Positions 54,124 to 59,387 of a stretch of DNA of 64,000 nucleotides are shown in pieces (the stretch's first letter is position 1; each line of letters opens with the position of its first letter). The DNA lies in the NCBI RefSeq assembly GCF_030845195.1, contig NZ_CP132543.1, positions 62,001 to 126,000 on the forward strand, given 5' to 3'. Both the position numbers and the translations under genes were made by a program. This DNA is from Sanyastnella coralliicola. GTDB lineage: Bacteria; Bacteroidota; Bacteroidia; Flavobacteriales_D; Sanyastnellaceae. The notes beneath the pieces were generated by a model. It was given only the letters and a program-made list of their open reading frames with translations, made no database searches and was not told the origin of the DNA.

Positions 54124-54351
54124 TTACGCTTTCAAGGTAGGTTTTTTTCGATAAAAAGCGACAAAGCCAATCACCATCAAAAGGTATGGAATCCCCATCA
54201 GATAAAGGATTCCAGAGTTTAGTCCTTTACCAATGCCTCCTGAATCTGCAGAATCTTCCGCCACTGCTTTGCACATAACACACTGAGCTTCCGAAAATTC
54301 CGGAATTGAGACAAAGAGTATCACGATGATAAGAATGACCCATCTTTTCAT
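54124..54351 (-). CDS. Small exported/membrane protein with CxxC
   Basis: 75 residues: signal peptide or anchor (1-23, ending FSEAQ), then CVMCKAVAEDSADSGGIGKGLN, a membrane helix (about 44-66) and a basic tail. The Cys pair directly after the signal, facing the periplasm, may bind metal or heme. Homologous small proteins (QCxMCK then NSGILYLM-) are found near cytochrome oxidase assembly genes in Bacteroidota; function not known. The ATG at 54351 is preferred over the frame's earlier start because a promoter box ends 4 bases before it. Confidence 0.75.
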   Translation of the reverse strand: MKRWVILIIVILFVSIPEFSEAQCVMCKAVAEDSADSGGIGKGLNSGILYLMGIPYLLMVIGFVAFYRKKPTLKA

Positions 54352-54355
54352 AGAG

Positions 54356-54363
54356 CAAAGATA
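54356..54363 (-). promoter_or_regulatory. -7 box close to the start of the small CxxC gene
   Basis: TATCTTTG on the minus strand, 4 bases (CTCT) before the ATG at 54351; it starts 2 bases after the DUF420 stop, so the gene may be expressed both from this promoter and by read-through. Confidence 0.55.
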
Positions 54364-54365
54364 AC

Positions 54366-54929
54366 TTAGAACGGTGAGAATGGATAGAAGGGAGAAATCA
54401 TAAAGTAGACGATCACTCCGGTCAAGGTCACGTATAACCAAAGAGGGAAAGTGTACTTCACAATTTTGCGGTGCTTATCGATTCTTCCTGCCAAGGCATG
54501 AGTGAAGGCGAAGAGTACAAGAGGTACGATCACCGCAGACAACACAATGTGCGAGAACAAGATGAAGTAGTAGATCGTTTTCACGGTTCCTTCCCCACCG
54601 TATGGTGTATGGCTAGTGGTAGCGTGAAAGATCACATAAGAAACCAGGAAGAGCGCCGAGAAAGTCATGCCCAACGTGGTTAGTTTACGGTGAGCTTCCA
54701 CGTTCTTGTTCTTAATCGCGACCAAGGCAGCGATCAACAAAAGGAAGGTACTCCCATTCAATAGAGCGTTCAACATAGGTAGGAAGTACAGGGTAGACTT
54801 CGTTCCCTCTTCGAATTCAGGAGTTGGGATGTAACGCAACACCGTCACTACAATCGGGATGACTAGGCTGATAGCGATGACAAACTTACGAGCCGTACGC
54901 TCGTTTTGAATGAATGCAGGTGCGTTCAT
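54366..54929 (-). CDS. DUF420 membrane protein (cytochrome oxidase-associated)
   Basis: A 187-residue protein with five membrane segments (about 14-30, 46-65, 83-103, 119-143, 160-180) and three conserved histidines: HRKL in the third loop, HATTSHTPYGGEG, and HIVLSAVIV. DUF420 proteins resemble the heme-binding CtaM/CtaG-like assembly factors of oxidases. It overlaps the SCO gene by 4 bases and is last of the oxidase series. Confidence 0.88.
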   Translation of the reverse strand: MNAPAFIQNERTARKFVIAISLVIPIVVTVLRYIPTPEFEEGTKSTLYFLPMLNALLNGSTFLLLIAALVAIKNKNVEAHRKLTTLGMTFSALFLVSYVIFHATTSHTPYGGEGTVKTIYYFILFSHIVLSAVIVPLVLFAFTHALAGRIDKHRKIVKYTFPLWLYVTLTGVIVYFMISPFYPFSPF

Positions 54930-55591
54930 GGTTCTTGTAATAAGCGCTTGATATCAATAAACAGTTGATCTACCTCGGATGTTGACGTTCCGTCATAATA
55001 TCCTCGGATGTGTTTATTCTCGTCGATCAAAGCAAAAGTGTCTGAGTGAAAGAATCCGCCAGCAGCGGTATCTGATTCCAGTGCAGTGAGATAGTACCCG
55101 AAGCGTGCTTGGTCATAGATGTCATTCTTATCTCCAGTGGCAAACTTCCAGTAAGTGGTGTCTGCACCCATGCGTGCAGCATACGCATCTAGAATCTCTG
55201 GTGAGTCATACTCAGGGTTGACGCTATGCGATAAAATGCGAATCTCACCCCACATCCCCTCGTTTTTTAATTTGTCTTGCAAACGTGAAAGCTGGGAGGA
55301 CATCACTGGGCAGATGGTCGGGCAGGTCGTGAAGAAGAAGTCAGCTACGTATATGTGGCCGTCGTAATTCTTGTGAGACACTTCTTTTCCTGATTGATCT
55401 GTGAAAGCAAAAGGAGGAACCTCAAAGTAAACGGTATCGGCTAACATCGAACCATCATCTTGCTTAACGAGCTGGATGTCGTGATTCCCAAAGTAGGGCA
55501 GGGGCTGTTGTTTTGCTGAGTCTTGAACGTCTGCTTCGCAGGAAGCGAGGACTAGACTAATTCCCAGAATCAGCGCGCTTCCTTTCTTCAT
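54926..55591 (-). CDS. SCO1/SenC family copper chaperone
   Basis: A 221-residue lipoprotein (SCEADVQD) of the SCO family, which delivers copper to the CuA centre of cytochrome c oxidase. The thioredoxin-like fold shows the copper ligands: CxxxC in ADFFFTTCPTICPVMSSQL and a histidine in GGFFHSDTFALID. ILSHSVNPEYDSPEILDAYAARMGAD is the conserved middle. It follows a degenerate paralogue (55557) with which it shares 35 bases and precedes DUF420. Confidence 0.95.
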   Translation of the reverse strand: MKKGSALILGISLVLASCEADVQDSAKQQPLPYFGNHDIQLVKQDDGSMLADTVYFEVPPFAFTDQSGKEVSHKNYDGHIYVADFFFTTCPTICPVMSSQLSRLQDKLKNEGMWGEIRILSHSVNPEYDSPEILDAYAARMGADTTYWKFATGDKNDIYDQARFGYYLTALESDTAAGGFFHSDTFALIDENKHIRGYYDGTSTSEVDQLFIDIKRLLQEP

Positions 55592-56246
55592 ACGCTTCGA
55601 TATCTATCTCTTTCTTTAGAAGGGCGATGTCTTCAATAGCATCCTTGATCTGTTCTTCTAGGTTACCATCATATACACCTCGAATGTGTCCCTCGGTATC
55701 GACTAATTTGAACTTAGCTGTGTGAGTAGGGTCGGGAATCAGAAAACCATCTGTAACAATCTCATTAATCACCTCTTGATCTCCGGTCAGGAATTGCCAC
55801 TTACCATCGTAGTCATTGTACTGTTCCATCTGGTCGACGTACTCCTTTAATACCTCTGGTGTGTCGTGTTCCGCGTCGAGCGTAAAACAAACCAAGTAGA
55901 TATCAGACTCATGACGGTACCGGAAGTTCGGCCAAAGTAAACGACTCGTGATTTTGCGGATGTATGGGGAGTTGGTTCCATAGAACGCAGCCAACCACAC
56001 CTTGCCTTTTAAAGAGTCAAGTGTAACAATTTCACCTTCCTGATTCGTCAGGCTGAAGTCAGGGAGTCGGTGATATATTGTGTCGCCTACAACAGTGGTG
56101 TCTACAGTCTTCGGACCGTAGTATGGTAATGTGTTGAAGTGATGCGAGCCAGCCTTTCCAAAGAAAAGGAGCAATGCGAGGGGAAACAAAAAAAGTACAC
56201 CTGTGAGTAAGATGTACTTTTTCCAATCAATTTTTTTCTGTGCCAT
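55557..56246 (-). CDS. SCO-like protein without copper-binding cysteines
   Basis: A 229-residue membrane-anchored protein (helix about 11-29) with the SCO fold: LPDFSLTNQEGEIVTLDSLKGKVWLAAFYGTNSPYIRKITSRLL, then CFTLDAEHDTPEVLKEYVDQM and DPTHTAKFKLVDTEGHIRGVYDG. The CxxxC copper motif is replaced by TNSPYI; only the histidine (HTAKF) is kept. It may be a paralogue that no longer carries copper. Tandem with the true SCO gene. Confidence 0.85.
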   Translation of the reverse strand: MAQKKIDWKKYILLTGVLFLFPLALLLFFGKAGSHHFNTLPYYGPKTVDTTVVGDTIYHRLPDFSLTNQEGEIVTLDSLKGKVWLAAFYGTNSPYIRKITSRLLWPNFRYRHESDIYLVCFTLDAEHDTPEVLKEYVDQMEQYNDYDGKWQFLTGDQEVINEIVTDGFLIPDPTHTAKFKLVDTEGHIRGVYDGNLEEQIKDAIEDIALLKKEIDIEAYEERKRADSGN

Positions 56247-56624
56247 TTATTTCCAAACGTCCCAAAGGTCAAAGTGGGAGATTCCTTCGGTGAGTGCGAT
56301 AAAGATCAAGTACGCGATAAAGATCACATACGGAACTAGAATCACACGACGAAGGTTCTTACGCTCATCGCCTAGGTGCATGAATGACATTACGATGTAT
56401 CCAGCTTTGAATAGCGTCAAGATGATGAATGACCACTTGATCGCCGTCCACGTGAATGTTTCGCTTCTCTTGAAGATGATACCCATGGCTACCTCTGCAA
56501 CAGTAATTGCAGTGAGGATAGCAGTAACCTTCCATACATTCTTTCGGATCTTCTTACCTGCTTCCTCACTGTGGTGAGCCTGCATTGAGTAAGAATCATT
56601 TACAATTAGATCGTCTCTTTCCAT
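56247..56624 (-). CDS. Cytochrome c oxidase subunit IV-like protein
   Basis: 125 residues with three membrane segments (about 33-52, 63-85, 94-112), and KAGYIVMSFMHLGDERKNLRRVILVPY, the typical motif of the bacterial subunit IV (CyoD-like) family. It stabilises the oxidase. The ATG 13 codons in (MQAHHSEEAGKKI) is another possible start. It follows the two subunit III genes. Confidence 0.9.
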   Translation of the reverse strand: MERDDLIVNDSYSMQAHHSEEAGKKIRKNVWKVTAILTAITVAEVAMGIIFKRSETFTWTAIKWSFIILTLFKAGYIVMSFMHLGDERKNLRRVILVPYVIFIAYLIFIALTEGISHFDLWDVWK

Positions 56625-56642: not shown

Positions 56643-57638
56643 TCAAACAAGGTAGAAGAAGGTGAATACGAATACCCATACAAGGTCTACGAAGTGCCAG
56701 TAAAGACCAATCTTCTCAACCATCTCGTAGTGTCCACGCTTTTCGTAAACGCCTTGGATTACGAGAAGCCAGATGATGATGTTAATCACCACACCAGAGA
56801 ATACGTGGAATCCGTGGAAACCAGTAATGAAGAAGAAGAAGTTGCTGTACTGTTGTTGCACACCGTACTCATTCTCTGAAAGATTCGCACCGAAGACGAA
56901 CTGATCGGAACTACGAGCGTTCCAAAGTTTCATCATTTCAGCGCCTTCTACTGTTGCTCTGTTTTCAATGTACTTGTTCACTGTCAAGTACTCTAGCGTT
57001 GCTTCGTGGCTGTGAGCACCAAGAGACATAGCCGTTACTGAACCACCAGCCGTGGTAACAGATACGTTTGGCGCGCCTTCAACGTACTCTTCCATGATGT
57101 TTCCGAAGTGGTGATCCATGTAAACACGGTCTCCAGCTAACATGTCAAATTGCATAGTCTCTCCATTGGCCAATGTACCTGTCACGGTAACATTTTCAGA
57201 AAGCTGGAATGCTCCACCTGAACCATGAATGAAGTGTGACCACTCCCAAGCCTGTGATCCTAGGAAGATGAATCCTCCAACGATCGTCCAGCCGAGCCAC
57301 TTGATAACCCCTTTTTTGTCGTTACGGTGACCAGCTTCTACCCCGAGAACCATCGTTACAGATGATACAATGAGGATAAAGGTCATCAAGGCCACGTAAG
57401 CCAACGGATACTGTCCTTCAAGACCAGGAAGTGCTTCGAACACTTGTTCACCGATTGGCCACGGGCTCTCAGAACCGTGACGGATAAAACCGTAAGCAGT
57501 GAGGAGTCCTCCGAATGTCAGTGCATCTGACACTAGGAAGTACCACATCATCATCTTACCGTAACTTACACTGAAAGGTGAACGTCCGCCACCCCACAGT
57601 ACTTCTTTTGGAATTTCTTTTGTCGCTTCGCCTGCCAT
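56643..57638 (-). CDS. Cytochrome c oxidase subunit III (with large soluble insert)
   Basis: A 331-residue subunit III of a heme-copper oxidase. Membrane segments and the final HFVDLVWVFVFTFFYLV are clear, with EVLWGGGRSPFSVSYGKMMMWYFLVSDALTFGGLL near the start. Between the fourth and fifth segments there is a long soluble part (about 140-265), with several His residues (HHFGNIMEEY; GAHSHEATLEY), which the 200-residue typical subunit III lacks. Subunits I and II are not in the window. Confidence 0.92.
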   Translation of the reverse strand: MAGEATKEIPKEVLWGGGRSPFSVSYGKMMMWYFLVSDALTFGGLLTAYGFIRHGSESPWPIGEQVFEALPGLEGQYPLAYVALMTFILIVSSVTMVLGVEAGHRNDKKGVIKWLGWTIVGGFIFLGSQAWEWSHFIHGSGGAFQLSENVTVTGTLANGETMQFDMLAGDRVYMDHHFGNIMEEYVEGAPNVSVTTAGGSVTAMSLGAHSHEATLEYLTVNKYIENRATVEGAEMMKLWNARSSDQFVFGANLSENEYGVQQQYSNFFFFITGFHGFHVFSGVVINIIIWLLVIQGVYEKRGHYEMVEKIGLYWHFVDLVWVFVFTFFYLV

Positions 57639-57660
57639 AGCCAGGAAATTTGCCGCAATT

Positions 57661-58455
57661 TTAATGAATTAAGAACAAAAAGACGAACAAATACAGCCAT
57701 AATATGCCCAAGAAATGCCAGTACATTCCATTGGTGTATAGACTAATCGTTTCGTTCTGATTGATTTTGCCCTTACTAATTCGCACAATGTTAATCACAA
57801 GGTATACAAATCCGAACACAAGGTGCAGGATGTGAATACCAATCAATGCCCAAATGTATGAACCGTTTGAGTTCGTTTGTTTGTGCACCTTTTTGGTGAT
57901 TGGCTCAGCTTGAAGCACGTCATCTGACGCGTAAAACTCGCCATCATCATAGATCAATTTCTTTCCGTCTTTGTGTACGTAGTAGTCCACTCCGTACTCG
58001 CCACTTACCTTATCAAGACTGTTCCAGCGGTAAGCTTCAAGACCTTGACCGTTTTGAGCCACAGTCCATCCCATTCCTTTTGAATGGAGTTCGTCCCAAG
58101 CAGCTTTTTGGGTGAGCGTGAAAGCCACACCCAGAACCAAGGTGGCGACCATCATGGCCATCGAAAGTCCTTTATTCCCAGACTTCATTGCTCGAAGTGC
58201 CAACCAAATGGTCAGACTCGAGATGATGATGATCACATTACTGATCCAAAGTGAGGTAGGTGGGTTGATATGAACCCAGAACTCACCCATGCTGCTTACG
58301 ATGTAAGCTGAAGTGAATCCTCCGAATAACATGACGATAGCGAAGATGATGAAGTACATCAACATCTTTTTCGTCCTCACTTTTACGTCAGGATCGAAAT
58401 CTGCGAATACGTCTTTCTTGTTACGGGGCTGTTGGTTTGAAGAATCTTCGTTCAT
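57661..58455 (-). CDS. Second cytochrome c oxidase subunit III-like protein
   Basis: A 264-residue paralogue of the previous gene: RTKKMLMYFIIFAIVMLFGGFTSAYIVS, then a helix with PTSLWISNVIIIISSLTIWLAL, an inserted soluble part (about 125-200) and the ending YTNGMYWHFLGILWLYLFVFLFLIH. Pairs of subunit III genes are normal in Bacteroidota caa3-type oxidases. It lies 3 bases after cyoE and 22 bases before the first copy. Confidence 0.92.
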   Translation of the reverse strand: MNEDSSNQQPRNKKDVFADFDPDVKVRTKKMLMYFIIFAIVMLFGGFTSAYIVSSMGEFWVHINPPTSLWISNVIIIISSLTIWLALRAMKSGNKGLSMAMMVATLVLGVAFTLTQKAAWDELHSKGMGWTVAQNGQGLEAYRWNSLDKVSGEYGVDYYVHKDGKKLIYDDGEFYASDDVLQAEPITKKVHKQTNSNGSYIWALIGIHILHLVFGFVYLVINIVRISKGKINQNETISLYTNGMYWHFLGILWLYLFVFLFLIH

Positions 58456-58458
58456 TCT

Positions 58459-59370
58459 TTAGAGTTTGTCAATGACATACATTATTTGAACGATCGGAAG
58501 GTAGATGAATGAAGCAAACATCAAGATTTTGGCGTCTTTGGTGTCGGTGCTCTTGTAAAGCTTCCATGCGTACCATGCGAAGATGGCACCACAAATAGCT
58601 ACAACAGCTGCTCCCCAGTTACCAATCATTGGTGCTTCGGCAGGCAAAGCCCAAGGAAGTAAACTCACAGGGATAAGAACCATGCTATATAGGAAGATCT
58701 GGAAAGCAGATGATTTGGTACGCCCTCCATTAAATGGAAGAAGCTTGTACCCAGCCTTCGTGTAGTCTTCGTGCGCAACCCAAGCAATGGCCCAGAAGTG
58801 AGGGAATTGCCACATGAACTGCGTAGCGAACAAGGTTCCTGGTTCAACATTGAAGTCTCCTGTTGCGGCAACGTATCCAAGCATTGGTGGAATAGCTCCA
58901 GGGAACGCTCCGATAAATACAGCAAGTGGACTGCGTTGTTTCATCGGCGTGTACAAGAACACGTAGAAGAAGATAGCAATGGCTCCAAGAAGACCACTCA
59001 AAGGATTTAGGAATTGCCAAAGAATCAGGATTCCAGCGAGGCCGCTGACAGTAGCCAAGGTAATGCCCTCTGCTACACCCATTCTTCCAGTTGGAAGCGG
59101 ACGATTCTGTGTGCGTTTCATCAAGCGGTCAAGGTCTCTCTCCCAAACTTGATTCAATCCGTTACTTGCTCCAGTGAGTAGGAATCCACCAACAACGAGG
59201 GCTGAAACAGCAAACCAACTGACTTGCTCAGCTCCCATGAGGTAGCCTAAGAATGATGACAGAACAACGATAAGCGTCAGGCGCACCTTGAAAAAGGCCG
59301 CAATATCCTTCATGCGATCTCCGAAGGAGTAGCTACGAGAAATTGACTCAGCTGACTTTAGGTTCTCCAT
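58459..59370 (-). CDS. cyoE: Protoheme IX farnesyltransferase (heme O synthase)
   Basis: A 303-residue UbiA-type prenyltransferase that makes heme O from protoheme. The allylic diphosphate motif is GASNGLNQVWERDLDRLMKRTQNRPLP, with a second at DYTKAGYKLLPF, in a nine-helix layout. The ATG at 59370 is chosen because a TAACTTTG box lies between it and the frame's earlier ATG at 59382. First gene of the oxidase operon. Confidence 0.97.
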   Translation of the reverse strand: MENLKSAESISRSYSFGDRMKDIAAFFKVRLTLIVVLSSFLGYLMGAEQVSWFAVSALVVGGFLLTGASNGLNQVWERDLDRLMKRTQNRPLPTGRMGVAEGITLATVSGLAGILILWQFLNPLSGLLGAIAIFFYVFLYTPMKQRSPLAVFIGAFPGAIPPMLGYVAATGDFNVEPGTLFATQFMWQFPHFWAIAWVAHEDYTKAGYKLLPFNGGRTKSSAFQIFLYSMVLIPVSLLPWALPAEAPMIGNWGAAVVAICGAIFAWYAWKLYKSTDTKDAKILMFASFIYLPIVQIMYVIDKL

Positions 59371-59379
59371 AATCGGGGG

Positions 59380-59387
59380 CAAAGTTA
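59380..59387 (-). promoter_or_regulatory. -7 box of the oxidase operon
   Basis: TAACTTTG on the minus strand, 9 bases before the ATG at 59370, giving a very short leader. It fixes the cyoE start. Confidence 0.55.

Follow-up and report, generated by a model that had tools for sequence, protein, structure and literature searches.

Canonical SCO1/SenC proteins, such as Bacillus subtilis YpmQ (BsSco), ScoI and human SCO1, share with the protein described here, which we call pSCO, the family PF02630, a thioredoxin-like fold, one membrane anchor and the oxidase operon. pSCO differs from them in that it lacks the CxxxC motif, has an unconserved copper-site histidine, and is always paired or fused with a canonical SCO. 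Two paralogues share the work on CuA in human (SCO1/SCO2), Paracoccus (ScoA/ScoB) and yeast (Sco1/Sco2), as pSCO and SCO probably do. In all three pairs, however, both members carry CxxxC and the His, and there is no division into a copper-carrying and a copper-free partner.

The closest analogue is Arabidopsis HCC2 (AtSco2), which has an SCO fold without the Cys and His residues and exists beside a functional paralogue, HCC1. Loss of HCC2 leaves oxidase activity intact and renders the plants sensitive to UV-B (PMC3971200); in yeast, the protein rescues a stress phenotype (PMC6307045). A review calls a working SCO devoid of copper ligands, namely plant HCC2, surprising, notes that it implies a role beyond thioredoxin or metallochaperone activity, and requests more research on the function (PMC6696091). 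The same combination of fold and missing Cys/His ligands is found in the pSCO family as a whole, the His being kept by the copy in the window (the entire 64,000-nucleotide stretch of Sanyastnella coralliicola DNA analysed). Unlike pSCO, HCC2 is eukaryotic and encoded by a separate nuclear gene, neither operonic nor fused. A limited search of open-licence PMC papers, which does not prove absence, found no bacterial Cys-less SCO described as a tandem or fusion partner of SCO.

The pSCO gene (positions 55557–56246, minus strand, as are all features given below for the window) encodes a Cys-less SCO1/SenC paralogue of 229 residues. It is composed of a transmembrane helix (residues 8–32, 56151–56225, from the AlphaFold helix and hydropathy), a membrane-proximal neck His35-x-Phe37 (56136–56144), a thioredoxin-like SCO domain and a long C-terminal helix. 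The neighbouring gene (54926–55591) encodes a canonical SCO with intact CPTIC and FHSD and the lipoprotein signal LASC. The two reading frames share 35 nt (55557–55591), exactly as the original prediction had it, and a similar overlap occurs in most relatives with unfused pSCO and SCO. The complete 4.1 Mb source genome has no SCO-family genes besides these two. Against PF02630 (curated cut-off 22.8 bits) pSCO scores 44 bits and its neighbour 93.9 bits; the two proteins are 30% identical, and the closest solved structures to pSCO by sequence are those of B. subtilis YpmQ/Sco1. The AlphaFold model of the window's pSCO (pLDDT 92.8, pTM 0.82) consists of the transmembrane helix 8–32, the SCO fold and the C-terminal helix 197–227. 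The best PDB matches found with Foldseek (E 2.6e-13) are all SCO proteins, i.e., BsSco, B. anthracis SCO, ScoI and human SCO1, in agreement with a thioredoxin-like fold. Helix 8–32 provides the single membrane anchor, and the topology, with the domain facing the periplasm, is inferred. Judged by sequence, pSCO is an SCO1/SenC protein by descent that lacks the copper site by which the function is defined.

The alignment pairs CPTIC of SCO with SPYIR of pSCO, so that the first Cys corresponds to Ser93 (codon 55968–55970) and the second to Arg97 (55956–55958). The equation of TCPTICP with TNSPYIR made earlier was thus right about the loss of the cysteines and off by one in its frame. The sole Cys of the window's protein, residue 120 (LVCFT), lies outside the motif. 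A sample of 88 pSCO and 85 partner SCO sequences was drawn from the window's own family (f1). No pSCO in it has a Cys at either motif column, whereas both are present in 85/85 partner SCOs; 14 of the 88 pSCO sequences have no Cys anywhere. The loss is therefore real. The suspicion that a local indel had merely misplaced the cysteines was pursued with the same alignment of homologues, and misalignment is ruled out by the absence of both from all 88 relatives and their presence in all 85 SCOs. The histidine, described earlier as intact, fared differently. His175 (55722–55724) does align with the copper His, which is retained in 83/85 partner SCOs (the other two being gaps). Among pSCO sequences, however, this column holds Asn in 74/88 and His in six, the window's copy included, and is therefore not under selection as a ligand. 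As for the suggested "redox-inactive chaperone", the residues present make it certain that the motif is redox-inactive. Service as a copper chaperone is unlikely, given that the family has lost all three ligands.

pSCO turned out to be widespread and constrained. Of 101 genomes searched in the family, 93 contain it, and the remaining eight, which lack a strong match, are mostly incomplete assemblies. Its frame is open in independent assemblies, one of them a single-contig genome. Its dN/dS of 0.02–0.10 (Nei–Gojobori NG86, close pairs) is in the same range as for SCO. In the columns inspected, H35, F37, T100, L104, N107, R189 and Y192 are invariant in all 88 sequences, and the conserved residues T100, L104, N107, Y110 and R111 fall in the helix that follows what was once the Cys loop. 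pSCO is under firm purifying constraint. A search of 396 genomes of the class with a pSCO profile revealed no orthologue outside the order: matches there reach at most 132 bits vs. 345 or more for members of the family, and the 20 leading ones, once fetched, all have CxxxC. A contig search with the single pSCO protein yielded no more than two close relatives plus a canonical SCO from Algoriphagus.

The pair is embedded in an oxidase operon. It is preceded by genes for the haem O synthase CtaB (58459–59382, assigned by sequence reading rather than a family scan), two CoxIII-type proteins (56643–57638 and 57661–58455, together 56643–58455, identified from their place in the operon and from reading the sequence rather than by a family scan) and a COX4-type oxidase subunit IV (56247–56624). 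Downstream it is adjoined by a DUF420 membrane protein (54366–54929), and the operon ends with a small membrane protein bearing a CVMCK motif (54124–54360). The order ctaB-coxIII-coxIII-COX4-[pSCO-SCO]-DUF420 is constant in the fetched loci of the family, apart from some that are truncated where the contig stops and one with a rearrangement upstream, and pSCO stands between COX4 and SCO-DUF420 in every complete locus. In families f2 and f4–f8 the same slot is occupied by one SCO, which is canonical apart from one f4 species. One CoxII was found in the source genome, with its CuA motif intact (CNKVCGAAHFNM); PCuAC, sought as an alternative copper donor, was not found there.

Three sister families (f3, f10 and f12) have a comparable arrangement. 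Their first copies resemble pSCO in occupying the operon slot with a transmembrane anchor ahead of a lipoprotein SCO, and in some f3 genera the two are fused. Unlike pSCO, in which the loss is complete, most of these first copies retain two cysteines, in many cases at a changed distance (three to six residues between them). Both cysteines have gone in f3 genus g32 and f10 genus g36. Universal loss of the cysteines in tandem pairs of Flavobacteriales thus holds throughout the window's family and fails in these three. The loci concerned (L156–L185 in f3, L146–L148 in f10 and L083 in f12) range from CxxxC to CxxxxxxC, which resembles a stepwise decay of the copper site. A separate case is an f4 species whose sole oxidase-operon SCO (L067:3985-4693) lacks the motif (FTRSSTNGPIM) and keeps the His; another SCO-family match lies elsewhere in its genome. 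This is an independent loss of ligands without a tandem partner.

In a tree of 88 rows (IQ-TREE, LG+C20), which included no plant sequence, pSCO groups with the Flavobacteriales tandem duplication by descent. pSCO of the window's family forms a single clade (100/99), as do the first copies of f3, f10 and f12 (100/99), and together they are split from all 61 canonical SCOs with a branch support of 89/77. The partner copies of all four families cluster as well (97/95). This fits one old tandem duplication, although the branch support is moderate, both branches are long and long-branch attraction is possible. Since the first copies of the sister families mostly keep their Cys pair, the decay of the ligands postdates the duplication.

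The anchors of the two proteins are complementary. All 88 pSCO sequences have an N-terminal transmembrane helix without a lipobox, followed by the H-x-F neck, and in all 40 separate active SCOs a hydrophobic stretch is followed by a lipobox-like Cys (as scored by a lenient script). In the order, the neck recurs in most single-copy SCOs; those of f2 and f4–f8 possess the transmembrane helix and the H-x-F neck, as do many SCOs at the class level, and those of f9 are likewise anchored by a transmembrane helix. Helix and neck are therefore likely to be the ancestral form. The simplest reading is duplication, degeneration and complementation, in which an ancestral SCO had both the helix with its neck and the copper site, and each copy kept one of them. 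On this simplest reading, fusions reunite the two halves, anchor and copper site.

Such in-frame pSCO-SCO fusions occur in 43 genomes of the window's family, belonging to six genera (g3, g5, g10, g11, g13 and g14). Each is one ORF of about 413 residues in which the pSCO domain is followed by an active SCO domain without a signal peptide or lipoprotein signal. AlphaFold predicts both domains of a natural fusion well (pLDDT 87.7), and the pTM of 0.66 makes their mutual placement uncertain. The sister family f3 has fusions of its own, joining a first-copy SCO to an active SCO. Both families also hold separate pairs, which implies either two or more origins of the fusion or repeated losses of it. 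Genus g11 has six fused and two separate pairs, so fusion there was repeated or is reversible; in one of the separate pairs the genes meet at ATGA and SCO begins with a lipoprotein signal. The fusion partner is repeatedly SCO rather than COX4 or DUF420.

Fusion, the divided anchor and the grouping in the tree together argue for a partner role of pSCO. We consider it probable that a tandem-duplicated SCO has split into a membrane-anchored copper-free pSCO and a copper-carrying SCO which jointly serve CuA assembly. The starting points are observations, namely the loss of ligands, the constraint, the obligate pairing, the complementary anchors and the repeated fusion; we infer from them that pSCO contacts SCO physically, docks on the oxidase and is needed for CuA assembly. 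In the proposed course of events, the SCO gene of the oxidase operon would have been duplicated in tandem in an ancestor of the Flavobacteriales. The first copy would have retained the transmembrane anchor and neck, with the loss of all three copper ligands coming later, and the second would have retained the CxxxC and His copper site and turned into a lipoprotein. Produced together from overlapping genes, pSCO and SCO would most likely function as a pseudo-heterodimer, in which pSCO would hold and position the active SCO at the membrane beside nascent CoxII and the oxidase, and SCO would carry out the thiol and copper reactions that serve CuA. The original prediction of a heterodimer partner or scaffold gains backing from the fusions in two families, the obligate adjacency and the complementary anchors.

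The relic or artefact interpretation deserves least credence. The copper ligands are indeed gone, as expected of a degenerating relic or of an annotation or assembly error, but the presence in 93/101 genomes, the open frame in independent assemblies and the seven invariant residues in the columns inspected speak against both. With dN/dS of 0.02–0.10, pSCO is no relic, and together with the distribution this refutes a pseudogene; we regard this possibility as hardly credible. The most serious competitor is a membrane-anchored oxidase subunit or scaffold (for CoxII, CoxIII, COX4 or DUF420) that lies beside SCO by operon order without touching it. It would explain why pSCO, anchored by a transmembrane helix, comes directly behind COX4 in every complete locus and why it has conserved residues of its own (T100, L104, N107, Y110 and R111) after the former Cys loop. 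Neighbouring overlapping genes can, moreover, fuse without protein contact, which counts against a contact reading. We nevertheless hold this competitor to be unlikely, since the repeated in-frame fusions join SCO and not COX4 or DUF420, and the residual rate correlations of pSCO with the latter two are negative. For pSCO and SCO the rate correlation exceeds that with operon neighbours (partial r of 0.40, falling to 0.19 without one fast genus). This agrees with contact but is weak and only suggestive, and such a modest excess was rejected as proof of contact.

By analogy with the role proposed for plant HCC2, pSCO may have left copper work for membrane redox or stress signalling. HCC2 also lacks Cys and His, its knock-outs are UV-B sensitive with oxidase activity kept (PMC3971200), and it relieves yeast stress (PMC6307045). 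pSCO, however, differs from HCC2 in being tied to the oxidase operon and to an active SCO, with which it can even share a polypeptide, and it has no redox-active Cys pair, 14/88 sequences being free of Cys altogether, which makes signalling improbable. Binding of copper or another metal through a different set of residues appears very improbable. Position 95 in the former loop is His in 61/88 sequences and the window keeps His175, but the window's protein has Tyr at position 95 and other sequences have Asn or Phe there, the His175 column is mostly Asn, and the columns inspected contain no conserved set of three ligands.

Returning to pSCO as the partner of SCO, a Cys-less copy so firmly conserved beside or fused to SCO suggests a two-part machine, one half of which is dedicated to a role without copper. 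It is quite possible, and we put it forward tentatively, that SCO here works as an obligate two-domain machine, with its copper-free half serving as a membrane docking platform for CuA assembly, independent of the chemistry and genetically separable from it. If this is true, the role of SCO in oxidase assembly includes a docking function that does not depend on chemistry. The role of a copper-free SCO would here have been split off by evolution into a conserved protein of its own, tied to the copper-carrying SCO by operon and fusion, which opens the question to direct tests on a pair of small proteins or on a single natural fusion.

Other members of the oxidase loci also merit mention. DUF420 immediately follows SCO in nearly all fetched loci, fused or unfused, and may be part of the same assembly step as SCO. 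A long His- and acid-rich insert (HEGSHDPHHGNDEGEDHGEEHDDHHHG), possibly a metal-binding stretch, precedes the CuA domain of the CoxII at L145:445-1911. The CVMCK protein at 54124–54360 (minus strand), after DUF420, reads QCVMCKAVAEDSA..GLNSGILYLMGIPY and has no Pfam or NCBIfam match. Of the 52 oxidase loci fetched across Bacteroidia, some of which are the same genome fetched repeatedly, 32 contain a comparable CxMC[KR] protein according to a pattern search, and the protein is a candidate oxidase-assembly or thiol/copper factor.
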